Shown piece after piece: positions 3,614-39,567 of a DNA stretch of 64,000 nt (its first letter is position 1; every line of letters begins with the position of its first letter). The stretch is from Cokeromyces recurvatus (taxonomy: Eukaryota; Mucoromycota; Mucoromycetes; Mucorales; Mucoraceae). The stretch lies in the NCBI RefSeq assembly GCF_025118155.1, contig NW_026251420.1, forward strand, positions 1 to 64,000, given 5' to 3'. The position numbers and the translations under genes were made by a program. The notes beneath the pieces were generated by a model. That model saw nothing but the letters and a program-made list of their open reading frames with translations. It was not told the DNA's origin and did not search any database.

Positions 3614-3619
3614 TATATA

Positions 3620-3711
3620 CACCTTTTCCGGAAATTATTCGTACACTTTAAAAATAAAAATTCGTGCACTAGAAAAATAAAAAATCAAGCAGTAAAAAAA
3701 TAAAATTTCAA
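3620..3711. repeat. Left terminal inverted repeat of the Tc1/mariner element
   Basis: These 92 bp are an exact reverse complement of 5554-5645. The match ends at base 93 (T against G). Confidence 0.95.
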
Positions 3712-4165
3712 TCACAGACAAAATAAAATATTGTACACTTAAAAATAAAAATTAACACATTAGACTAATTAATATTTCGTGCACTTTGAATTTTTTGTTA
3801 TGAGCTCACTTATAATGTCATGTTTCTTGATTAAACATGTGGATCATAAATTTATTTAAGAAATTCTATCTATAATCTCCTGAATCTCTCTTGATCCGCT
3901 CCATCTAATAACATTAAAATTACTAACACTTCATTGTCAACAACATACCTTATTTGGTCGTAACTAACACTTTTCTGATTCATATCTTATCCTCATACCT
4001 CTTTAACAATTCTTATAAATACCCCCATCATTTTAAATTCATAAATAAAAATAATTGACTTTAGAACTATTGTTCGGTCTCGTTAACGTTTTTTTTTGTC
4101 TTTTTGTTATAATATTTTTTATTTGTTATTTTCAAAGAAATATCACATTTTTATTTTGAATTAAA

Positions 4166-5488
4166 ATGGATCAATTTATACATGAAGATGGAAAAGGCAA
4201 ATCATTCAACGAAGAAGGGGATGAAGTTGAAGTACTTCAGATGGAGGTCGACGATCCTGATTATCCTATTGCAGATATTACAAGTTATGGGGAATATTTA
4301 GATTTAAAGCCTCCCAAAAAACCTCATAAGGCTAACAAAGTTGTATCCAAAGAGAAAAAACGGGTAGTAAATGAAGAGTCTCAAAACAACAAGAAAACGT
4401 ATCGAAACTATAGAAAGGAAGAAATGGACTATTTCTTCTTCCTTGTAGGTGAGAAGGGTATGTCCGTTCGTGGGGCAGCTAAACAAATAGGTGTTCCTGC
4501 TAGTACAGCTACTTCATGATACAAAAAAAGTCTTGAGGATCCAGACGAACTTGTCAACAAAGGAAAACCCGGAAGCGGAAGGCCTGTGGGAAGACCTCCT
4601 ATCTTGAACGATGCCCATCGCGAGTACCTTATCAATTCGGTTGATGAGGATGATTCAGGCATGACCTTGGATCAAATGAGGGATAGATTAACCAGGAACT
4701 TTGAAGGACTTGAGATAAAAAAATCTGCCTTCTATACTTTTGTAAAGGAAAAATGCAGAATAAGCTGTAAGAAATCTTATTTTTATCCTGAAGATAGAAA
4801 CAGCCCTGAAAAGATTGAGGAGAGATACAAGTGGGTTAAAAACCTGTTGGGTAATACTGATATTGATTATCAATTCAACTGTATTTTTATTGACGAAGCA
4901 GGATTTCATATCAATATGAAACGCTTTTTTTCTTGGTCTCGTGTCGGTAATCGCGCTATTGTTAAGACACCAAAAACCAAGGCTAAAATGACAACTATTT
5001 TGGGCGCTATTTCACCTTATGGAGTTATAAACGTAAAGGTTAGAACACCAAAAGTAACAGCATCCAAGAAAAGAAAGCTTGGAAAGGAGAAAGAAGAAAG
5101 AAACAGTTCAATTGGCACAGTTATAGGCCATTGCTTCAATTTCATCGCCGATACTATTGATATCTTGGATCAGTACGAGGAATTTAAAGGGAATTATCTT
5201 GTTATGGATAATGTCCCAATCCACAAGCACCAGGATATAAAGAGCTATATCGAAAGTCGCGGTTACTTTTGTTTGTATCTGCCCCCATACTCTCCTGAAC
5301 TGAACCCAATTGAACAGTTTTGGTCCGTCTGTAAAAGCAAACTGAAGAGAGAGCCACTCTTAGAAAGCGAAACCCTTACCAGTCGCATAAGGGATGCATG
5401 CAATAGCGTACTTTTAAGTGATTTGAGAGGGTTCTGCAGATATTCGATCCGGAAGTTTGATGATTGCTTGGAACGTAAACCACTTTAA
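4166..5488 (+). pseudogene. Tc1/mariner DD34E transposase with a single in-frame TGA
   Basis: One frame of 441 codons, start to stop, is interrupted only at 4517-4519 by TGA, at a place where Trp would fit the HTH (TATS-stop-YKKS). N-terminal to the stop is a helix-turn-helix (GMSVRGAAKQIGVPASTA). After it come an AT-hook-like GRPVGRPP and the catalytic core: FIDEAGFH (first D, about residue 243), VMDNVPIHK (second D), and PPYSPELNPIEQFW with the third residue E. Exactly 34 residues separate the second D and the E, so it is DD34E. A downstream Met at 4586 could start a 300-residue protein that lacks the DNA-binding domain. Without the TGA the protein would look intact, so the mutation is probably young. 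Confidence 0.9.
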
Positions 5489-5553
5489 AAACTTGATACA
5501 TTTTGTACATTTGATACAATGAAAAAATGCACCAATAAAAAAAAACATAATGC

Positions 5554-5645
5554 TTGAAATTTTATTTTTTTACTGCTTGATTTTTTATTTTTCTAGTGCA
5601 CGAATTTTTATTTTTAAAGTGTACGAATAATTTCCGGAAAAGGTG
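5554..5645. repeat. Right terminal inverted repeat of the Tc1/mariner element
   Basis: This is the exact inverted partner of 3620-3711 and is followed by the TA duplication at 5646-5647. Confidence 0.95.
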
Positions 5646-5834
5646 TAATTTTATCTTCTTATTACTCATCATCCTTATTCACAAAATATATAAATACTCT
5701 TACATTATTAACACTTACTTGGTAATTTATAACACATAACAATACTTGTATTGAGCTTAATTCTTAATAAAAACTTATTGACAAGCCTCAACGTACTTCT
5801 TCTGTCTATCTTATTTGTTATTTCTTTTATTTGT

Positions 5835-19325: not shown

Positions 19326-22300
19326 TTAGTGTATAGTGAGTTTAATAATAACTGAATTAACATCCCAATCATTTAGCTCCAATAAATCAAAAGCTTCATT
19401 AAGTGTACATCTTTCATAATCTGCAATATATCTTGCCTTTCTATCCTTAACAAATCGATCTAAATGCTCTCGCCATTCTTCTTCAATGTTAGTCATTAGC
19501 TTGTCTCGTAACTTTTGATCTGTTATTTTTGTTTTGATACTAAACCCTGCAGATATGGGTCGGTGATCTGAACAACGAGCTTCATGACGTCGATAATACA
19601 AATTAGTAATATTCTGTCCTTTAAACAGGACGCGATCACACCAAGCAGGTACACGTTTTTTCTCTGATCGGTCATAAAAATCTGTACCTGGATCGTATTT
19701 GTAGGTTGGGTCAAAATGAATAGGCGCCTCTTGAAATGTTAAAAGTTTAAAGAGTGGATTAGTGTGCTTTTGCCTCAAAAGCTGATCTTCTTTTTGAAGC
19801 TCCTCCCATGCAGCTAATTTGTCAGTATTTGTGAGAATCTTGAGGACATCATTACGAGACATCTTGATACGATAGTTAAGATCGCCACTTAAAAAACAAA
19901 ATTCATGATCCAAAATCATACTACCATCACCACCGTGTGTAAAGACATCTGCATAGTCATGACGAGGAAAACTGGCACTGTGAAGAATACCTTCTGCATC
20001 TGCATTTCGTTGCTGCACATGAGATTGGCCAGCTGCTAAATGACAGTTGACAAAGCAAAGGGACGAGTGATCATATACAAATCGAATGGCAATGCCGCCT
20101 TTGTTACCATGAATACTCTTGTTCATCACCTTTAACCCAGTTTTAACCGATGTTGAATCAATGTTAAAGACACGATCTAAATCTGTCGTACGAATAAAGA
20201 TGCAACTAAAGAGGCCAACAAGTTGATCTGTTTTGATAACTGTATATGTATGTGTTCCGTAATTGCTTGCAATCACTTCGATCAAATAATCATGCCATAA
20301 TTTATATCGATGTGTCAAAACATCTTCTGATTCGTTAGGGTCTACTTTCTTTTTAAAAAACAAGGACCCTACGAGGAAAAAAAAAAAGATATAATTAGAT
20401 AACAAAAAAAAAAAAATAGGAAAATATAAGATATAAATTACTTACGAGCAGTTTGTTTTTTCGATTCCAAATCAACAATTTCTTGAATACCGACTACAAT
20501 TATATCTGGATCTTCCATTGTCCCAAGCCACTCACGTACTACTTTTTTATCCTCTTCACATATCTTTTCGGGTTTATTTGCATCTATATTCCATGAACAA
20601 ATCATAACTCGTGCTTCATCATATGTACAATACTCTTTTGACCGTTTTTGCAAATGATCATCTATATATAGCCAATATTGAACGATTGTTAATTTATTTT
20701 ATTTTTTTTGAACAGAAATACACACACACACACGCATGCATGCATATATATACATATATGTATGTATCTTCAATTACCTTTCCAATATTCTGTTAATAAA
20801 CCATCCCAAACACCTACAAATCCATTTGAATCATTACTAACAACCTGTAATCGACTTCCAATTTCATCTAATAATAAACTTGTTTCATCTACAACTAATT
20901 GTGTTACAGCACCTGTATGGGCCTTCCACATTTTGAGAACTGTCCAATTTTCAGGTCTCGTATCATAAACATAAATCATACCGGTATTATAGCCTGCCCA
21001 AACATGATATTCACCTACGGATACCATTGAACAGATACCATACATGGAAACTGTGATAACCTGTATACGCTCAAGGGTCTTTGAATCCCAAATACTGACT
21101 TTTCCATCATCATGTGCAGCAAATACACGATATGGATGATAAGGAATTGTGATTAATTTTTTAATATTACCCAAGTCATTTGGAATTCGAACGGACATCT
21201 CTGCTGCAGTTGTAGTATGAACACACATCTTTCGACCTGCAGACATCCAAAGTTGGGATCCATAGATAACAGCAGTAACCGCTCGCTCAGTTACATGATA
21301 ACGACGAGGCATACTGAATAGAGGATTCTGATTACTTGTATATTCTGCTCTACTGACGTCCCATATACATAAGAGGCCACTTTGATCAATGGTCCAAATT
21401 TCTGTATTACTGTATCGTAAAATGAATGTAATAGGTGCCCCATGAATGTCGTGACGTTTACTAAGCACTCGATGGGTTCTATTATGAACTTCAACAATAC
21501 ATAGCACCGAATCATGTCTTGCCACCCAAAGATAACGGCCTTCGTCTAATGGTGATCGTGTAGGTGCCACTGCAACAGCACGAATTTTATCATTGTATTC
21601 ATTATTGGGCGAGTTTGTGCCGTTAGTAGATCCATCTGTTGAGAAGGTGACAGTGGTCAGGACTTCCCCTGAAAAGATATCCCAAGTACGAAGAATATTA
21701 GATCCCGTAATAATGATATTTCGACATGTAGCAAGTGCAGGAATTGAGCCTTTATGGCCAGTTGAAAAGGGTCTATCAAAGAGAATTAAAGGTGCATTAC
21801 GAGTTGCTTGTGAAAAGTCTGGGTAAGTGGTGGGGGTTATCAAGAGTTCACTACGAGACATGGCTCGTTTATTGGTAGAGATAGAACTAGCTCTTTTGAT
21901 AGTTGTAAGATGCTGATCCTCATCTTCTTCACTAAGAGCATGAGGCTCAGCATGGATATGAGTAGATAATGGACCTTTCAAATGAGTTACTGCTGCTGAG
22001 ATAGTATGAGCACGAGCCAGAGAAAACTGTGAGGGTCTAGGTGGTAGCTGAGGCATCACTATGTTGGCTGTAGGCCTTGGAGGTAAAATTGGAGGAGAGA
22101 CAACAGCGGCTTCAACAGAGACCTTGGCAGAACCTATGGGTATATCAACGACAGGAGAAGGTGGTTGAGGAGGTTGGACAATAGGTGCGGCAACTGAAGG
22201 CATTGCTGTTGTGGCACGAGCTACACTATGATATTTTTTACTAGGAGGTGGAGGTGGAGGAGGCTTCTTGTGTGATTTATAGTTCGTCGGCTTATGTTGA

Positions 22301-22937
22301 ATTCCTGGAGCACCAATATAAGATGGTAATTCAAATTTTGTATATTGTAACTGAGCTTTTTGGACTTGTTCAATCAAATGATTATCACCTTCGTTGTCAA
22401 CTGTTGGTATATAAGCTTCATCACTCTCTTCACTTTCATACACATCAATATCACTATCTTCATCGCATGATTTCATAATAGAAGTGTCTGTAAAGGAATC
22501 ATCATTTGTAGTAGTAGTAGTTGTTGTTGTTGGTGGTGGTGGTGGTGGCGGTGGTTTTCGTAATTCAGCTATTTTTGTTGTAGCTGGATTATCATTTTGT
22601 TGCTGCACAATATCATTACCAAGCGCTGTTACACTGTCAATTTGTTGTTTTTCGAACTGGTATGCCAACTGCGAAACACGTTTTGGCTCTTCTAAAATAA
22701 AATATTTATTAAAAAAGTTGACCCTTTTTTTTTTGTTTGTTATTGCTGATTACCTTCTATAAATACTTTATTCAAGGATATATAGGATGGTTTAGGTGGA
22801 ATAGGAGGAGGTATTGAATTGTCTGTTAGTCGAGGAGGAGATGATTGTTGTGATTGAGCCTGCTCAACCGACTTTTCTTGCTGCTCCCATTTGCTCTTTA
22901 ATTCTTGAAATGAGTGTTGTTCATCTTGATCGGCCAT
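19326..22937 (-). CDS. WD40-like propeller / inositol polyphosphate 5-phosphatase
   Basis: Four exons join in frame (22937-22754, 22691-20778, 20661-20446, 20368-19326), 1118 residues. A proline-rich N-terminus (PPPIPPKP, poly-Pro then poly-Thr from the same microsatellite, KKPPPPPPPSKK, PPILPPRPT, LPPRPS) suggests SH3 binding. A beta-propeller follows at about residues 340-660 (ITGSNILRTWDIFSG, AAHDDGKVSIWDSKT, YNTGMIYVYDTRP, NDSNGFVGVWDG). The IPPc catalytic domain runs from about 710 to 1030: ICSWNIDANKP, IVVGIQEIV, HGNKGGIAIRF, NCHLAAGQ, FLSGDLNYRI, VPAWCDRVLFKG and CSDHRPISAGF. All catalytic residues seem present. It removes the 5-phosphate from phosphoinositides or soluble inositol phosphates. 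The C-terminal helices (EAFDLLELNDWDVNSVIIKL) look UBA-like, which is a weak call. Confidence 0.93.
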
Positions 22938-23396
22938 TACTATAAATGTGTTGTAGTATGTCTATAAAATATGGCAGTAGGTAAAAAAGAAATGGATAAA
23001 AGTTATTTTATTTTATTTAGTTTATTTTATTGAAGACAATTTTATAAAATTGAAACTCAAACTTATTCAATAGTTTTTTATCAGCACCCAGATGATGAAG
23101 GAATAATTCTCCTACAATTAATTTTTTTTTAAACCTGAATCTGGAACAAGTCTTAATCATAACGCTTGTATTAATCATAATTTAGAATTACGTTATAAAG
23201 TAAATTATGCCCTAAAAAAAAAAGAAAAAAAATCGATATATGTTTCTAATGAATGAATAAAAAAGTTTTAAATACTTTGCATTATTATTTATCAAGTTGT
23301 CGTCTTAAAAGTGTATATTTCTTACGTAATTCATTAAATATTATTAATACAGTGAATAAGGATCAAAGTTCATTAAGTTATTTTTATTTTTATTTT

Positions 23397-23453
<57 letters not shown>

Positions 23454-23687
23454 GTTTGTTAGATAATTTTTTTCGAACTTGCTTCATCTAAATTTTATAA
23501 TTCGTTTTCGATTTTCACTGTTGAGAAAAGCTTTCTAATGTTCTTGAGTCTTATGGATTTTCTTTTTTTTTTTTATCAAGCGAACAAAGACAAAAAAAAA
23601 TACACATATAAGCATATTTATATAGCATGTTGTCTTTTTAACCTTGCATCTTGTAAAAAAATATAAAAAGCGAATTATAATATTTAG
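22938..23687. other. Intergenic region with a 54-nt poly-T
   Basis: This region upstream of the phosphatase holds short ORFs only. A T run of about 54 lies at 23399-23452. No gene was recognised. Confidence 0.45.
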
Positions 23688-23769
23688 TTGAACCGAACAA
23701 AAAAATACACTGAACGAACAGACTTAACGAACTTGGATTCTTACTACATTCGTTGTCGTTTCTTTTTTA

Positions 23770-23802
23770 CAGTTTTTACACTTTGGATTCAGATGACGTT
23801 AG
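23770..23802. repeat. Left TIR of the Fanzor element
   Basis: It matches the inverted 27005-27037 at 29 of 33 bases; mismatches are at TIR positions 6, 17, 22 and 25. It is preceded by TTA. Confidence 0.85.
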
Positions 23803-24011
23803 GCGAATTAAAATTACCTTTTTCGGATGAAATAAAAAAGGAAATTCAGATAAAAAAAGTTAGTTTTAGACGAGTTCCAACAAGAAATCATTCATACCTT
23901 TAAAAATGTAAAGACTGTTGAAAATAATAATAATAATAATAATTAACAAATTTATATTTTTTTTTAAAAAAATATAGAACTTACGCTGTACGGACGTATG
24001 AGAGAGTCGTA
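23770..24011 (-). ncRNA. Candidate fRNA (omega-RNA-like) region downstream of Fanzor
   Basis: In characterised Fanzor and TnpB systems the guide RNA scaffold is encoded at the 3' side of the nuclease gene and ends at the element boundary, with the guide drawn from flanking DNA. Here 242 nt lie between the Fanzor stop (24012-24014) and the element end at 23770, in the expected orientation. Structure was not computed. The call rests on position alone. Confidence 0.35.
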
Positions 24012-26165
24012 TCAGTCACACGGGGATGGTTCATCGATGGTTGCGTCTTTACGCTTGAATTGGCTCGGACGCTGATTATTGTTTTTCGAAGCAAATAAAA
24101 ACATGTCCAAGATGTTGTGAGCTGCCATAATGTCGCAATTCGATACAATATTACAAATATTTTGTTGACACTGTAATATTGTGTGTACTCTTCGCTTTGA
24201 TTTTTTGGTCACCACATTCTCGACTTTTCTGATCTTGTACTTGTTGCAGATTTAGCTGGTGAGTTATTCATCAACCACTACTACTTCTAACTGCTGTCTG
24301 CAATACCTCTTCAGCGCTTTTGTAATAGTTCTGACTGGCGACGACCTGTTGCCTCGTGAACTAGTATTAAACACACCATCGCCCAAAGCAATGATCGTTT
24401 TTATTGGCCTTTCTTTATGATCGGTCGGGGTAGGTGGATAGAATTTGCTTACATTATCAATAGCTGACTTTACACCAGTAGATGACTTCTGATGATATTT
24501 GCTGCTGTTATAGACGAACCTCTCGCAAATCTCATGCACACCTTTTTGTTTCTTCATGTAATATTGGAATTTCAGTTTGGACTTCCTATAAAGTTTCTCT
24601 TTTGTAAGTGAACAAGTAAACACTTACCAATTATTCTCGTTATAATACTTTTTAATATCGTCATATAAGGCAAGTCTTTCTTTGCATGCTTTAATAAAAT
24701 CCTTGATAATCGATGTCTTCAATGAGCTCAGGTTTGATATTTTCGAGTATTCAGCCATGTGTTGCTTCTGATGCTGATTTTGTATAAACGTTGCATCATT
24801 ATAACCACATAAATGATAATATTCGTCTAAGCTGGTTGTCCTTTGCCTCCCAGGTGTATCTACGGCGGTGAAGATTGTATTGACACCAGGGTCTACTCTC
24901 CAGACAATACAGCCGTTTTCAATATCTTCAAGAAAGTCGGCTGGCTGTTTTTCTATGGAAACTTCTTTTTTTTTTCTTTACCGCTTGAGAAAAAAGAAAA
25001 GAAATAGAATACTCATCAGTAAGCACGACTTTTCTATATATTAATTAATTAATTAATCAAATTAAACCAAACCGATACTTTTATATTTCAATACAACTGA
25101 AGAATTGACTTGCTTGAACTGCTTTTTTCCTTGTGAAAGATTCTTTTCGAGAGCGAAATCCCAGTTTGGAAAAGTCAAAAAGCTTATAGTAGAAACCTAA
25201 TAGATCCGGTTCTATTTTAGTACTTTTTGGGTAATTTTCAATATTAGATTCTTTCACTAGTCGCCAAAAAGCTGTGGCATCTATTTGGACTAACTTTGTT
25301 TTAAATGAATAGATCGGTAATAGAGTGAAAACCCGATAGCCACGTTTATTTGTAAATTTTTCACACGTGAATGTTTCATCAGCAATTCTTGACTTGACAC
25401 TTGTGACAAGCGTTTCCAGAGCAGGTAAATGAAGCTTGGCTTTGGATAATTTCCGCCCAAGGATGAGTGGAACATTTGAATTAATGCTTTGGAGAACTTG
25501 TTCCTGCAAAGATTTGAAGCTTCGTCTATTGAGTATTGAAGTAAACGTTAGTTCTTTTAACCTCCTATTAATGTATAACTTGGAGGCAACGGTGACTAAT
25601 TTTTCTTCCATAATGTACATCTTTTTCACTTATTTTTTGCTGAAGGTAAAAAAAAGTCATTTAAAGAATTGATGTGGTTGAGAGTACAGATCTTTCGAGT
25701 TACAGCTTAATGCTTGATAGCTAGATCATAATGACTCCATCTTTTGTACAATCTCTTTAAAATGTTGATTTTTTTTTCGACAGATGACGGCCACACGTAT
25801 TCCTGCTTCAGCTTTAGCGAATAGATATAGTTAGCTAGAGATTTTCTTTCGCTAACAGATAAGCCCTTACAAAAGAAAATGTAGAGCCTTTATCGGACAA
25901 AGATTCCATAAAGAAGCGAATTGTTCTCCTTTCGTGGTTCTCACATACGTGGTTGCGTATGAGCACATTGTATTGTTTACATACAATGGGTAAAAGAGAA
26001 GAACATCCAACACTCTTGAGGGATTGTAGCATTGTGTCATTAATTTCACATTCATTGCATAATATAACTGGGAGGCTATTTGCCCTTACCAGTGACGACG
26101 GTAAAGATGGAGTAGATATCATTCTGACTCATAATCGGAACTTCTTCACCCTTCGTTAAGAGCTT

Positions 26166-26205
<40 letters not shown>

Positions 26206-26516
26206 TAGTTGATAAACAACGATTCTACCCACATCACTTTTGTTGTGTGTGCCGTGATGAGAGATATTTGATCAATAAGCTTAGCGTTTCTACAGATATT
26301 TTTCAAGAAGCATTTGATCACGAAGATCTCTTTTTCCTCATCTGGACCGTGCGTTGGTTCTTTTTGCTTTTTTAGGGGGTATTCATTGCTGTTTACTCTT
26401 ATATGGGTGGCTGAGCCGCATTTACACTGTTTTACTTTATGTTTTACTGTATCCGTTTCTTCCACTGTATTGCTTGCTGTTTCCATTCTAAAGTTGATCA
26501 AGGCACTCTTTTTTTC

Positions 26517-26587
<71 letters not shown>

Positions 26588-26850
26588 TATCATCTTTGAA
26601 ATATGAGATAAATCACTATAAGAAGAATTTGTAGAAGCAAGTGGCGTAAAAGCAAGTGAATTTGAAGCATGTGAAGTTGCAACAAATGCCGTCAAAGTAG
26701 GTGTATCATAATCCACATCTTAAAAAAAAAAGTAAGGCACATACTCTCTCGCTATGTATGTTTTTGATACTTACTCGTTAAAGTCTTTTTTCCTTTTGAT
26801 ATCGTTAGATCGTCAATTGGATTATTTTCACGCTTTCGCTTTATTATATA
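24012..26850 (-). pseudogene. Fanzor (eukaryotic TnpB-like RuvC nuclease), decayed
   Basis: Exon pieces run along the minus strand. The N-terminal exon has basic KRKRENNPIDD (about 26830) and splices at 26774/26719 to YDTPTLTAFVATSH. Next come a zinc-knuckle-like CKCGSATH, a helical region (CKQYNVLIRNHVCENHERR), a strand block (VFTLLPIYSFKTKLVQID) and VVLTDEYSISFLF. RuvC-I follows at VWRVDPGVNTIFTAV (Asp codon 24891-24893) with TSLDEYYHLCGYN, then a clean 42-nt intron (24627-24586). Further on are IALGDGVF and the RuvC-II/zinc junction VVVVDE. RuvC-III is CDIMAAHNI (Asp codon 24132-24134). Damage: TAA at 24264-24266 and 24252-24254 within the DE-x-x-TS segment, Cys to Tyr in the CxxC, NCD instead of NRD, a frameshift in the A run near 24970, another near 25835, and long homopolymers at 26167-26203 and 26519-26586. 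It is Fanzor1-like by architecture. The exact start is unresolved. Confidence 0.85.
26519..26586. repeat. 68-nt poly-T run inside the Fanzor gene
   Basis: This is the longest homopolymer in the window. Read on the minus strand it is A68 within the N-terminal coding part and breaks the frame unless it lies in an intron. Confidence 0.9.
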
Positions 26851-26959
26851 CTATAGAATCTTGAAGAAAAAAGAAATGTTGTTAAAGTGTTTGAAGAAGT
26901 TTTTTTATTTTATCCGAAAAAAGGTAAGCAAATCATCTGAAAAGTAATTATAATTCGTT

Positions 26960-27004
<45 letters not shown>

Positions 27005-27006
<2 letters not shown>

Positions 27007-27037
27007 AACGTCGTCAGAATTCAAAGTGTAAGAACTG
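27005..27037. repeat. Right TIR of the Fanzor element
   Basis: This is the inverted partner of 23770-23802. A 44-nt A run at 26961-27004 separates this outer part from the inner part of the repeat. Confidence 0.85.
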
Positions 27038-27083
27038 TTAAAGAATTGCGCCCCTGCTCGACTACTGAATATCCTGAAAAATC

Positions 27084-27760
27084 ATGACTCTTCGTGTTAT
27101 TAATCGGTTACACCATAGAGATCCGCCCCCTGCACCCACTTATACATCAGTAACGAAGCGAGACATCCCGCTATCCAGGCGACCTATTACTCGCACGTCC
27201 CTCATGAATCCTTCAGCCAAAGTAATTGTAAATGACGACGTTAAAGTTATTTCGACTCAACTATGGAGACATACACTCGCACCAAGCGCTTACTTCTTTG
27301 ATACCTCTGAAGTTCCTGACCTGACAGATGTCCAACATTTTGCAACGATTTTTAAATCGTATCCACCTTCTCAATTTTTTCGGTATCAAAGCCTTTGTCA
27401 GTAAAACAACGGGCCGATATATTGAAGTTAATCCCAGACCTAAAATTATGGACCATTTTGCTTGCTTCCCAAGGTGTATTCTACGAAACTAATAAAATTC
27501 GTCTTCTACCTTGCAAAGCAGTTGAGGGCAAGGGGGAAGTCATCCAATTGAATTTCTCTGATATTCCGTTCCTTCTTGAAAGTGAAATTCTAGAAGGACT
27601 CACATATGCCGTATCTAAATTTGGTACAATTTTCGATGTGGGAGTTAAAAAAAAGACTCTACCTGGAATGTGTTCATGGGTGCAGGATACGCTGTTATCC
27701 AACAAAACCCTGAGGAAAACTACCCTCCTTTGTCCCACACTGTGATATTTCTTTTAAAAT
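27084..27760 (+). pseudogene. LINE ORF1 (gag-like) relic
   Basis: Starting at ATG 27084, three frames must be joined to keep similarity to the gag-like ORF1 of Mucoromycota LINEs: MTLRVINRLHHRD to YPPSQFF, then GIKAFVSKTTGRYIEVNPRP, then SQGVFYETNKIRLLPCK with SDIPFLLESEILEGLTYAV and FGTIFDVGV, then GAGYAVIQQNPEENYPPLSH. The shifts fall near T and A runs (about 27377, 27440 and 27648). The C-terminal CCHC knuckles expected after this part are missing, because sequence similar to a mariner 5' region begins at about 27766. Recognition comes from pattern memory of such proteins. Confidence 0.65.
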
Positions 27761-27765
27761 ATCAA

Positions 27766-28098
27766 ATAAAAAAAAATATATATTATAATAAAAAGACAAA
27801 AAAACGTCAACAAGACTGAACAATAGCTCTAAAGTTAATCACTTTATTTATGAATTTAAATTGATGAGGTATTTATAAGAATTGTTAAAGAGGTCTGATA
27901 TAAGATGCGATTCAGAAAAGTGCTAGTTATGACTTAATAAGATATGTTAAAGATAATGAAGTGTTAGAGGTTTTAATATTATTTGATAAAGTGGATCAAG
28001 AGAGTTTCAAGAGAATATAGATAGAGTTCCTTGAATAAATTTATGGTCTGCTTATTTAATCAAGAAACATGACGTTATAAATCAGCTCATGATATTGT
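27766..28098 (-). mobile_element. 5' fragment of a Tc1/mariner element
   Basis: Reverse-complemented, this stretch matches the untranslated leader of the Tc1 element at about 3801-4130 with roughly 80 percent identity. Shared blocks include GTCATGTTTCTTGATTAAA, CTCTCTTGATCC, CTAACACTTCATT and CCTCTTTAACAATTCTTAT. No TIR and no transposase accompany it, so it is a truncated relic of a sister copy. Confidence 0.8.
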
Positions 28099-28110
28099 AC
28101 CCTTCCTGGT

Positions 28111-28778
28111 TGGAACTACGCTTTTCTAAAGGGTCATTAAACTTATGTTGAAGTGAACAATGTATTTCATGTTGAAATTTGAAATTATATTTGTGAATAA
28201 ATATATGCTAGGATAGGGTAAAGTGATATTTGTGATTCACGCTATAGCATTATGGTTTGGTAAGATGAAATGTGAAGAAGAATGAAACAAGTGGTATAGG
28301 CAAAAAATAAATCGTGCTGTATAGTTGCTATAATGTAACTTATTTTTGACGCGACTGCGTTTACCAAAAATGAAGTTGTAAAGTTATTTGGGTAAAAACT
28401 ATAATAATTCGGTCTGGTTATAATTTGAAGAATTGTATGGTCCCTTAAGAGTATATTGATAAGCTTAACTGTATAAGGACTATAAAAGAATAGTCAAGTA
28501 CCAATTCTATAGAATTTTGAGAACTATAGATAAATTATTTTTTCTTAATGGTATTCCTTTTTTTTTAGTAACAATATTAATCACTAAATCCATCTATTAT
28601 ATAATATGTTTGTTTATATATTTATAACTTTATTAATAGGAAAAATAATACACTAAAATACCTTTATAAGGAAACTTAATCTTTTTAAGAGCCTTATAGA
28701 AATTAGGCAATCGTTCAAAGCAGAAGTATTTTACCAAGAGACTGCTTATATATAATAACAAAAGTCACATTCATTTTG

Positions 28779-28825
<47 letters not shown>

Positions 28826-28890
28826 TTATTATTATTATTATTAGAGAAAAAGGTTTTGATCCTGTAAAATCGATCAACCTTTTCAACATT
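28111..28890. other. Intergenic region upstream of REX1
   Basis: No gene was recognised. A run of about 45 T (28780-28824) precedes the REX1 start. Confidence 0.45.
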
Positions 28891-31031
28891 ATGAAATTTA
28901 CACCTAACATTGATAAATTTGCCGTTCTTCATGATGCATCCAAAAAGATACATGTTACTTTTGAAGATGATCCTGTAACTGACAATTCATCTAAAAAGCG
29001 ATCTCATTCCGATAATGACAAAGATAGCAAAAAGAAGGTAAAAAAATCAATAGACAAAAAGGAAGAAAAGAAAAAGAAAGTAGAAAAAAAAGATGCAGTT
29101 CCCATTACAGCACCAACCACACAAGAACAAAGACAACAACACAAGTCAGCAGTTCCCATTTCGGTGCCCTCTACTCATAATACGACATCCTCTAAAAAAA
29201 AAAAATTTAAAGTAAATAAAAAACCACTTACTCAAGAAGAGATTCTCGCTAAAGTTGCAGCTATTCGTAAAAAGAAACAACTCAAACGTCAAGCGAAGGT
29301 GAAGATCAATGGTGAACTCGTTGCAAAACCCACTTTCCGTATTTTACCTGAAGGCTTGAAAACGATGATCTCTACAAAGCAACTTGGTGAATTTATTTTA
29401 TATGCACTTTCAGAGACAACACCTTTAACATGGTGCAGTATTATTCATAAGGCTAAAGTCAATCATGTCGTCATGGTCTATGCTCAAGGCCTTAATTGTA
29501 CTGATTTTGGTGTCTCTGAAGAGACCTCCACTGGCTATGTTGATTTAAATAGTCTCAAGTCTGAAGAATGGATTGGTAAGGCTGCCATGCCCTTCTTGAC
29601 AAGTCGAAGTCAGTATATGATTCTGAATCAAATCTCAGGTCATAACGGTCGTTTTAATTCTCCAGTTGCCGATATCTTACAATGTAATATGTCCTATTCT
29701 AAACGTGAACGTCTGGCAGCTGAAAAATCGGAAAAGATACGTCGCTTTCACAACAATATGAGAGAGTTTTATGTATTGACATTGGAGGAAATGAAGAGAG
29801 CTGATTATCCAATCCCACCATTTTTAGATGCTAACGTGACCTTACCAGAAGGTTGGAAGGAGACTCACCCAGCTATCGATACCACCGCACCCGCTAAACA
29901 AAAACGTCTTGTAGCAGTCGATTGTGAAATGGTTTTAACTGAAATGGGGAGCACATTAGCACGTATTACTTTGATTGATGAGGATGGCTCGGTTTTATTG
30001 GATGAGTTGGTCAAACCAGATGCCCCTGTTATCGATTACTTGACTCAGTATTCAGGTATTACACCAGCTGCTATGTCTGAAGCTACCTGTTCTTTGCGTC
30101 GAGCTCAAAAGCATGTTCGTAAAATTGTCAACCATGATACCATTCTAGTTGGACACGGTCTAGAAAACGATTTAAAGGCAATGAAATTAGCCCATCCTTA
30201 TTGTGTCGATACCTCTCTTCTTTATGACCATCATCGTGGCCCTCCCTATAAACCTTCTCTCAAGTTCTTGACTCGCACCTACCTTAAACGAACGATTCAA
30301 CATGGTGGTAAAGGTCACGATTCAGCAGAAGATGCTCGTGCGACTATGGACTTATTTAAACTTAAATTGGCCAATAAACCTAGTTTTGGGAAATTCAAAA
30401 AGACAGAACTCATCTTTGATCGATTGCAAGCCTTCAGACCCCCTAGAACGTCAGCTATTTTGGAAAGTAGTACGAGTGAACATCGATCCTTTGGATCGAC
30501 CGAGGCAGGTGAATATTATCGCGTAGATACAGATGAGGAATTGGTCGACTTGACTTTATCCAAGTTACCCACCACTCACTTTTTATTTACACGATGGCAG
30601 GCAGCCGATACCGTTCAATGTGAAAAGGAGGAAGGTCCTGATGTTGTTGTACCTAGTGCGGCTACTGCTGTCTCAAAGGACCGTGCAGTTCAATTACAAA
30701 CGTTGGATGATTATTTACGTCGTCTTTATGAAGGACTTCCTGAGAATTCCTTTCTAGTCGTTTCAGGTGGTGTTCGTGATGTTCCCGAATATAAAAAGTA
30801 AAGACCATAGGATAGGCAAAAAAAAAAAAAAAAAAAAAAAATAGTATTTACTAACACTTTGTATATAGATTATATGAAAGATATAGACAGTATCAAGAAA
30901 AATATGGAAATAAAAAACATGATTCAATACCTGTAGAAGAACAATGGATAAAAGAAGATTATACATTATTATGTAAATATGCCTCTAAAGCAAGAATGAG
31001 TACATCCTTTGTTATATTTAAATCCATTAGT
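28891..31031 (+). CDS. REX1: RNA exonuclease, REX1/Rnh70-like (DEDDh)
   Basis: Two exons (28891-30797, 30869-31031), 689 residues. The N-terminus is Lys-rich with a likely nuclear signal (KKRSHSDND, KKVKKSIDKKEEKKKK). The exonuclease domain at about residues 335-505 has Exo I VAVDCEMVLTE, Exo II VGHGLENDLKAMKL and Exo III GHDSAEDARATMDL, the DEDDh set. Motifs upstream (LGEFILYALSETTPLTWCSI) match the REX1/REXO5 group, which trims 3' ends of 5S rRNA, tRNAs and other stable RNAs. The second exon adds LYERYRQYQEKYG. Context gives nothing further; it is convergent with the kinase gene, 214 bp apart. Confidence 0.9.
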
Positions 31032-37552: not shown

Positions 37553-39567
37553 TCTTTTTCTTCTTCTTCGGGAATTAAATGCATGTAGTTGTACAAAAAT
37601 AAAAACCAATATCATTATACTTCTGTTGCATAGCAATCAGATCATCTATTATTGCTATAAAAGGATATTTTTTTTAATAATAATTAAAAATAAATTGTTT
37701 TCAAAAGTGTTATCTATAATTAATTGCATATAAATTAAATACCGTAGTGTGGGAGAATAATTATTGGGTTTAATCAAAGGAGGTGTGTGTGTGTCATAGT
37801 AACTAATACGATTAAACAGTTTTTATTTTTATTATTTTTATAAATTAAAATTTATAAAGCGACCTATGAGCACATACTATGTTTGTTATATTGGATTGCC
37901 CAGGTCAGTTCAAATTATGCGAAAAACAAAAAGGTATCTAAAAACCCTCTTACGGGGACAAGAGGTAAAAAGGTAAAGAAGAGAAGATGAGAAAGAAAGG
38001 GTGGAATATTGCTAACAAGTTTCAAGGGACAACCAGTTGAGTCATACTCTTGCCTGGATCAAGAAGTGGAGGGGGGATAGTTTGTCGTGCATTAAGTAAT
38101 CCATTTCCTGTAGAATGGTACACATCACTGGCCAGCGATAGAACCAGGCAGAAACATCCTGAGAATTTCGATGCTTATGCGATTAAGATCATTACAGGTA
38201 AAAAAGTTTAAACATAAATCTCAATTCGTTTAAAAAACTAATTCCTTTTTGTCTCAATTTCATTTCTTATTCTTCTGAACATTAATTTTGATTTTTCCAA
38301 AAAAAACACTAACATTTTCTGAATTTGAAGTAGAAATACTATAGACAACAGCAGTAACAAAAGGCTTTATTGTTTTACTTTTTTTTTTTTTTTTTTTTCC
38401 TCAGAAGATTTTTTTTCCTGCATCATTACGATAATTCATATTGTATTCGTTCATGCATCCATTTTAAAAAACCGAAGTCTTATATAAATGCATAAAATAA
38501 AAATGATGTTTTAGGTAGTAATAATAAGAGACAGTAAAAAGGAGAAAAATAAAAAAAAAGGTTTGTTATAAGTTTTCTTTTTTTTTAAAACAAAAAAGAA
38601 AAAAAAAACTATTTGGTAACAAGAGATCTACAAAGAAGATAAATCGTTAGCTAAGAATTACATCCATATTTTGAGAAGATCAAACGGAGTTTAATTTAAT
38701 AATGGAGCGGACCCTATAAGAGCTTTTAAAATAAGTGAATGTTGATTTATTATTCTTTATAAATAAAAGGATATACATAAACAATACATCGTTCTATTTA
38801 TTATTGTTTTATTTTTCTTTTTCTTTTTATTTTATTTTATCTTATTATATTTTATATAATATAATACTAAATAAAATAGAATGTGGACTTATAAAAGAAC
38901 GACAAAACAAAACAGAGTTATATTTTATGATGATACTAATTAGCATCATCTAATAAAAGTCATTTTAGCAGTTTCAAACTAATATATGCTGAGTGGAAAT
39001 TGAATAACTTTAAAGAAAGGAAAAAGAATTGTTGATAGCCTTTAAGGTACCAGACATGCCACGTGGAAAGTTAGCATAAAGAGTAGTTCTATTCTTATTA
39101 TGCAACTCTTATTTAAAACCAAGAAGACAATAAAATGAGGGGTAAGAAAAGAAAAAAGAAAAAGAAAAGGGTTCATATGAATGCAAGTCATTACACTTAC
39201 TTGTAAAATAAAGTTGATTTCGTCACGTTATTGAGACGGGGAAAAAAAAAAAAAAAAAGGATGCTTCTAAAAGATAAAAACGGACTTTGTTTTTTCTTAT
39301 ATAAAAAAAGAAAAAGAAGCCCATTAAAAAAAATGTATAATTTGTTCTTTCAATAAAATAAATAAATAAAATAAACAAAATAAAAAATAAAAAAAAAATA
39401 ATCTCTCTGTTTTAAGTAAAATATTAAATTAAGTGCGATGTAGGAGAAGAAAGGGAGACTTTTATTATTTTAAATGTCTTATTTGAAACTAATCTCTTCA
39501 TTAAAAAAAATATATAAATGTATATAAATATTTATTTTAAATTACAGATTATTTTAAATACTTGAAG

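Follow-up and report, generated by a model that had tools for sequence, protein, structure and literature searches.

A decayed Fanzor-only transposon of probable Tc1/mariner type in Cokeromyces recurvatus

What kind of transposon surrounds the Fanzor gene at positions 23770-27037 of a 64,000-nucleotide stretch of Cokeromyces recurvatus DNA (contig NW_026251420.1, positions 1 to 64,000, forward strand; hereafter the window), and what moves it? Fanzors are eukaryotic relatives of the CRISPR nucleases. The original prediction for this locus proposed a Fanzor packaged in its own inverted-repeat element with a 3-bp target duplication, perhaps a distinct non-autonomous family. Our comparisons of sequence indicate that the locus is very probably a decayed, non-autonomous, Fanzor-only transposon of Tc1/mariner type, with CAGT terminal inverted repeats (TIRs), insertion at TA, a multi-exon Fanzor on the minus strand and no transposase.

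As predicted, the Fanzor lies inside an element with inverted ends. The TIRs (23770-23802 and 27005-27037) share 29 of 33 bases; when the outer 300 bp are aligned with gaps, 137 of 183 aligned positions match. The motifs VDPGVNTIF, DE-x-x-TS and CDIMAAHNI occur on the minus strand in the order foreseen. No transposase was seen inside the element, either by eye in the reading frames or in a Pfam scan of five pieces, again in agreement with the prediction. The element and its flanks are laid out as follows.

23767-23769, no strand: left flank TTA, of which the part shared across the family is TA (flank reading)
23770-23802, plus: left TIR with CAGT end, on the 3′ side of the Fanzor gene (sequence; common to other copies)
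24012-24251, minus: Fanzor C-terminal piece with a degenerate zinc ribbon and RuvC-III (CDIMAAHNI vs RDITAAHNI in the C7 copy)
24252-24266, minus: two in-frame TAA stops within DE-x-x-TS (24264-24266 and 24252-24254), where the C34, C7 and C29 copies read DEYLTSQ
24264-24623, minus: Fanzor piece ending VVVDE; the C34 copy has the same residue at 102 of 115 positions
24586-24627, minus: 42-nt intron with GT-AG borders separating the RuvC-I piece from the one that follows, inferred by eye
24624-24977, minus: Fanzor piece carrying RuvC-I, VDPGVNTIF (reading frames)
25081-25629, minus: central Fanzor piece, MEEKL... (reading frames)
25835-26128, minus: piece of the N-terminal half, its frame broken relative to the C34 copy (reading frames)
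26076-26486, minus: N-terminal piece starting METASN and containing an A run (26167-26203) read as poly-F
27005-27037, minus: right TIR, on the 5′ side of the Fanzor gene (sequence comparison)
27038-27040, no strand: right flank TTA, which as a TA target reads TT, that is, altered (flank reading)

Around its catalytic core the window Fanzor reads VVVDE-stop-LTS-stop-ICNKYKIRKVE...ICNIVSNCDIMAAHNILD. The RuvC-I aspartate and the TS are retained, two TAA stops stand in frame, and CNKY and NCD replace the CNKC and NRD of the C7 copy, so that one zinc-ligand cysteine and the RD arginine are changed. Because of the two stops and the altered zinc finger and RD, this copy is broken; with stops in the catalytic and zinc-ribbon region it cannot make a working nuclease, and at most its ends may still be usable in trans. 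Long pure A/T runs occur both inside and outside the element (23400-23452, with a start possibly earlier; 26167-26203; 26519-26586; 26961-27004), and the run within the Fanzor reading frame varies in length relative to other copies.

The identity of the gene is settled by related copies, the window pieces on their own being sub-threshold. The C34 and C7 copies read VVMVDEYLTSQICNKCKIRNVE, C7 continuing ...TCNIVWNRDITAAHNILD, and the C7 copy can be followed as DEYLTSQICNKC...WNRDITAAHN. In Fanzor (TnpB-like) proteins the C terminus is described as D...[TS][TS]-x-x-C4 zinc finger-...RD (PMC3627910), and the C7 copy carries this motif. Against Pfam TNB (cut-off 26.3 bits) the C7 copy scores 38.6 and the C34 piece 20.4, two window pieces giving no match; across the genome, 5 of 12 copies exceed the cut-off (C7, C1, C29, C34 and C11). 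We then compared a profile of five zinc-ribbon pieces (A3; C7 and four related subfamilies) with the PDB. Eleven sequences match at E ≤0.01, all of TnpB, TranC, Cas12 or Fanzor1 type by label, bar two that are labelled more vaguely ('Transposase' and 'CRISPR-Cas'): LaTranC (2), TnpB-like L79, IS200/IS605 TnpB, Cas12g (2) and the Fanzor1 proteins of Spizellomyces, Guillardia and Parasitella (8gkh, 9cer and 9cf0). The TS, zinc ribbon and RD of these three structures align to the profile, with weak similarity (E 0.0007-0.0015), and the TnpB, TnpB-like and TranC entries have better E-values than the three. A single C34 piece gave no TnpB- or Fanzor-type match in the PDB. As to Fanzor1 or Fanzor2, where Fanzor1 is marked by its own clade and by not lying in an IS607 element, the window element has TIRs, unlike IS607. 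The predicted protein is firmly assigned to the Fanzor family. Another protein family for the interior was considered and rejected, as related copies identify a Fanzor and the window pieces give only sub-threshold Pfam matches.

The ends recur elsewhere in the genome. We searched the genome that the window comes from (28.05 Mb in 64 contigs) with a 33-base end pattern, allowing up to three mismatches and using the reversed pattern as a control, and found 17 places against none for the control. The ends are therefore neither a chance inverted repeat, which we rule out, nor unique to this locus, so the element withstands the objection, raised with the prediction, that they might occur only here. 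Many copies had likewise been anticipated, and a whole-element DNA search, which yields lower bounds, found at least 12 that bear a Fanzor, the window included (C28, C29, C11, C34, C1, C5 twice, C40, C7, C22 and C12 twice). Aligned together, the 11 others are 85.5-92.5% identical to the window copy; pairwise identities are mostly 0.85-0.93 (lowest 0.77), and divergence from the column majority is 3.5-10.4%, the window standing at 4.0%.

Frame checks over four blocks, with the C34 copy as reference and hence zero by construction, show every one of the 11 non-C34 copies to have stops, gaps that shift the frame or blocks that are missing, some of the long indels probably being introns or T runs of variable length. 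As the zinc-ribbon match of C34 itself contains a TGA, none of the 12 looks intact. G-to-A and C-to-T changes are in excess, with rates of 0.068 and 0.059 vs 0.0035-0.021 for other changes, perhaps through cytosine deamination of methylated repeats; such changes affect 8.6% of CpG sites and 5.2-7.2% of other defined contexts. The history of the family looks like an old burst followed by decay.

In its own genome the window family is embedded in a wider set of Fanzor elements whose ends are related. The Fanzor ends are of the type CAGTWTTTMYRCTT, and a widened pattern of 35 bases including the TA, again with up to three mismatches, finds 85 related ends genome-wide and none with the control. 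Pfam TNB has 70 genomic matches, 60 of them over the cut-off. To relate the two, we used 120 distinct ends, namely the 85 together with the best 100 of 157 from another search (control 26). A correctly facing end lies within 800 bp downstream of 21 of the 60 Fanzor matches, at 64-341 bp, and a wrongly facing one in that zone of a single match; 10 have an end within 4.5 kb upstream. As 26 of the 60 have an end on at least one side, 34 lack one by these patterns. Eleven pairs of ends were found, and all seven that were read whole enclose Fanzor exons. DNA likeness between subfamilies is mainly confined to the outer ~110 bp (roughly 71-95% in pieces) with short, weaker inner stretches; one pair of 3′ ends is alike up to ~230 bp, and C8 with C9:296167 and C5 with C9:226475 are close relatives throughout. 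The zinc ribbon of C7 is 23-35% identical to those of four other subfamilies, and that of C18 36-43% identical to four others. The element at C9:296167 looks, from its sequence, to be among the less damaged. A further end of this type lies within the window itself (38309-38343, minus strand; two mismatches, preceded by TA).

How does the family compare with published Fanzor elements? We drew on Mobile DNA 2013 (PMC3627910), Nature 2023 (PMC10432273), NAR 2023 (PMC10711439) and Cell 2024 (PMC11423790). SPu-1 of Spizellomyces punctatus, the founding Fanzor element, encodes only a Fanzor1; it has 33-bp TIRs with putative TA duplications and is present in 17 full-length copies (PMC3627910); its ends are given as 30 nt in PMC10432273. 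The window family likewise has TIRs of ~33 bp, TA, a Fanzor as its sole recognised gene and multiple copies. SPu-1 copies are ~92% identical to their consensus (PMC3627910), and those of the window family 89.6-96.5% identical to the column majority. SPu-1 (SpuFz1) also has an RNA encoded between the stop codon and the 3′ end, and Fanzor-less relatives with related ends (PMC3627910, PMC10432273). In contrast to the 2.1-kb SPu-1, with one open reading frame and nine intact copies, the window family measures 3.3 kb, has several exons and none seen intact among 12; the CA reported before the 5′ end of SPu-1 is no rule in the window family, and the likeness is one of description. Fanzor1 elements of Tc/mariner type include PUl-4, PGv-1 and PUl-1, of which PUl-4 resembles the window element in its TA duplication and in encoding only Fanzor1 (PMC3627910). 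These three have either the ends of a confirmed mariner or a mariner-like transposase of their own, whereas no such partner was found for the window family. The fungal Fanzor1 elements ROr-4, PBl-3, MCi-4, MCi-2 and MCi-5, several without their own transposase (PMC3627910), differ in their duplications of 9 bp (MuDr type), 11-12 bp or 6 bp, as against the TA and CAGT here. The window family is thus a further case of a published type; none of the titles and abstract openings listed by searches of openly licensed papers concerns it, but it is not distinct in kind, as the original prediction had suggested, since Fanzor-only elements with TA are on record (SPu-1 and PUl-4; PMC3627910).

The CAGT ends and the TA, which precedes 11 of the 17 ends and flanks four of eight two-ended elements on both sides, fit movement of Tc1/mariner type, as in SPu-1. 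A transposase of this type made elsewhere would bind the ends, excise the element and insert it at TA. In intact relatives, by analogy with TnpB, a Fanzor carrying an RNA transcribed from the element's 3′ end would cleave the donor site once it is empty, and repair from the sister copy would then restore the element. The prediction of a Fanzor-only TIR element with many copies and no transposase seen inside is supported, and movement in trans is presumed.

Several points weigh against this interpretation. The assignment to Tc1/mariner is drawn from two features, the CAGT ends and the TA, and each functional step of movement and cleavage is one that we infer. Six of the 17 ends have no preceding TA, the window's own flanks read TA and TT as a TA target, and when the two window flanks were joined and used as a query, the window's genome yielded no empty site of this insertion. 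The window pieces alone give only sub-threshold Pfam matches, none of them relevant, the window copy is not among the genomic TNB matches, and the RNA motif described below is undetected in the window's family. A search over the best 150 of 184 genomic matches to DDE_3 (Tc1/mariner) found no transposase carrying Fanzor-type ends. We also read the ends of five DDE_3 elements: those of four differ from the Fanzor type, and the fifth gave no clear ends.

The details of this search are as follows. Scoring covered 150 of 403 first-look candidates. Among the 150 DDE_3 places listed, none comes closer than 3.5 kb to any of the 85 ends, where about three were expected by chance, and one lies within 3 kb of the 120 ends; its stretch shows no end above the shuffled level, and the proximity is a chance match. 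The four other DDE_3 ends lie near CAGTGCGTCC, CACTATTTCC, CACTATTTTC and ACACCTTTTCC, with TA beside or within them and approximate limits, and the four elements that were fetched score at the shuffled level against the Fanzor ends. Because no cognate transposase was found among the DDE_3 places listed, we speak of Tc1/mariner type and not of a proven member. One of the five elements lies in the window (3618-5647): it is Tc1/mariner-like, has 97-bp inverted ends (99% alike) distinct from those of the Fanzor elements, and contains a 322-amino-acid frame that matches DDE_3. A DDE_1/pogo mobiliser was also considered and rejected, the single genomic match (C15:48756) not being near any listed end.

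The failure to find a carrier may also have a historical cause, compatible with the interpretation above. In this variant, which we consider possible though rather unlikely, the group descends from a Tc1/mariner ancestor with genes for a Fanzor and a transposase; the genome later lost the latter, leaving the elements stranded. Two-gene elements are published (PGv-1 and PUl-1; PMC3627910), and a lost transposase would agree with the outcome of the search over the DDE_3 places listed. However, the ends persist in many subfamilies, some elements such as C9:296167 look less damaged, and the search took in the best 150 of 184 DDE_3 matches and low-mismatch ends.

A second alternative concerns the target. 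TTA flanks the window copy on both sides, and TTA precedes five of the 17 ends and ATA another five, as would be found in a distinct, for instance PIF/Harbinger-like, family with TTA (or TWA) target duplications. The flanks of the family make this very improbable. The bases before the 17 ends are TA (11), CA (2), TG (2), AA (1) and TT (1), and no single base precedes the TA: of those 11 ends, five have T, five A and one C. Among the eight two-ended elements, TA stands on both sides, without a matching third base, in C18:80839-85363, C9:296167-299579, C21:284248-285900 and C9:226475-228687; C9:416707-419486 and C5:335926-338685 have TA/TG flanks, C8:9323-11765 has TG/AA, and only the window shows a 3-bp match. 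Three pairs with at least one damaged end and uncertain limits were left out (C5:212480-215101, C11:272015-275146 and C9:271509-271699); at face value none of them has TA on both sides or a 3-bp match. From the flanks of the 17 ends and eight elements, the family target is TA, and a TTA or TWA duplication is rejected. The TTA duplication put forward by the original prediction is thus no family feature; the most plausible reading of the window flanks is a TA with one base changed on the right.

That the Fanzor itself moves the element, with no transposase, we regard as barely credible: all seven end pairs read whole hold Fanzor exons with no transposase recognised by eye, and none of the DDE_3 places listed lies within 3.5 kb of those ends, but no Fanzor or TnpB is known to transpose, inverted ends with a fixed TA target are the signature of a transposase, and a Fanzor1-only element has been called non-autonomous (PMC10711439).

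Does the group also carry a guide RNA? In several subfamilies, comparison of 3′ ends reveals a conserved motif at or after the Fanzor stop codon, consisting of ATCGYYGTANYAAACACRGYT, a small stem and then TTACAGGTAA, which is perhaps a candidate omega RNA. In an alignment (A5) of six sequences from four families, with the structure drawn from these same sequences, pairing reaches 96.2% of cells and covariation scores 0.519, as against 0.291 in shuffles, neither value being reached by any of 500; when the partners are slid, pairing falls to 24-50%. Two further measures are unremarkable, changes on both sides being reached by 157 of 500 shuffles and further pair types by 279. A further alignment, fitted to the model derived from this structure and made up of ten of its matches (two being weak), gives 94.9% pairing and a covariation of 0.422 vs 0.231, with the two other measures reached by 15 and 46 of 500. 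Since the structure was drawn from the sequences scored, the covariation is support, not proof. Energy folding of three 3′ ends indicates no unusual stability (z -0.57, -0.96 and +0.42), so it is conservation and paired changes that support the RNA reading.

In a wider test, a 21-base pattern with up to two mismatches occurs at 69 places (control 20), 21 of them exact. Nineteen of the exact places sit 70-174 bp after a TNB match and/or 109-211 bp before an end, as do 9 of 17 with one mismatch and 6 of 31 with two. The motif follows within 400 bp of 25 of the 60 Fanzor matches (0.03 expected), four of which helped to define it; leaving out the six exact places used in its definition, 13 of 15 are so positioned and 21 of 56 Fanzor matches are followed by it. 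The model also found a C13 sequence (78 bits) that was not used in building it and is close to that of C9:416707, and C34:1122244-1122322 (L055:4745-4823; 33.4 bits), which lies inside a Fanzor-type end without a TNB match. This last locus is somewhat like the Fanzor-less 'ghost' elements of S. punctatus (PMC10432273); its strand misfits a simple layout.

Within window positions 20000-30000 the model gives seven matches at E ≤10, none significant; the top-scoring one (12.8 bits, E 0.92) is on the opposite strand. In six loci of window-family copies the model finds nothing at E 5. At the expected place the window holds the following.

23878-23923, minus: weak, non-significant likeness to the 3′ half of the RNA-like motif (10.4 bits, E 3.1)

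The RNA of the window family has either diverged or been lost. At gathering thresholds, Rfam finds only one transfer RNA in the window.

Taken alone, the window element is an ordinary dead Fanzor transposon, and the group matters more. The 60 zinc-ribbon matches and 85 ends in one 28-Mb genome form a natural set for studying the co-evolution of Fanzor, guide RNA and ends; with the less damaged-looking relatives and the candidate guide RNA, they also offer a route to the transposase that moves Fanzor-only elements. A more speculative proposal, which we think unlikely, is that the group is a radiation of Fanzor-only elements that kept their ends (~110 bp) and a structured RNA core while the zinc ribbons diverged to 23-43%, without a transposase of their own. 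If so, the nuclease and a foreign transposase would have a common unit to act on, made up of ends and RNA.

Published Fanzor1 elements have an RNA that extends through the 3′ repeat into the flank (PMC10432273, PMC10711439). Two exact motif matches (C3:405728 and C23:313371) stand apart from any Fanzor match or listed end. The loop conserved in the motif, TTACAGGTAAG, resembles the CAG|GTAAG of a 5′ splice site; within the TIR a similar AGGTAAGCAAATCATCTGAAAA is found again.

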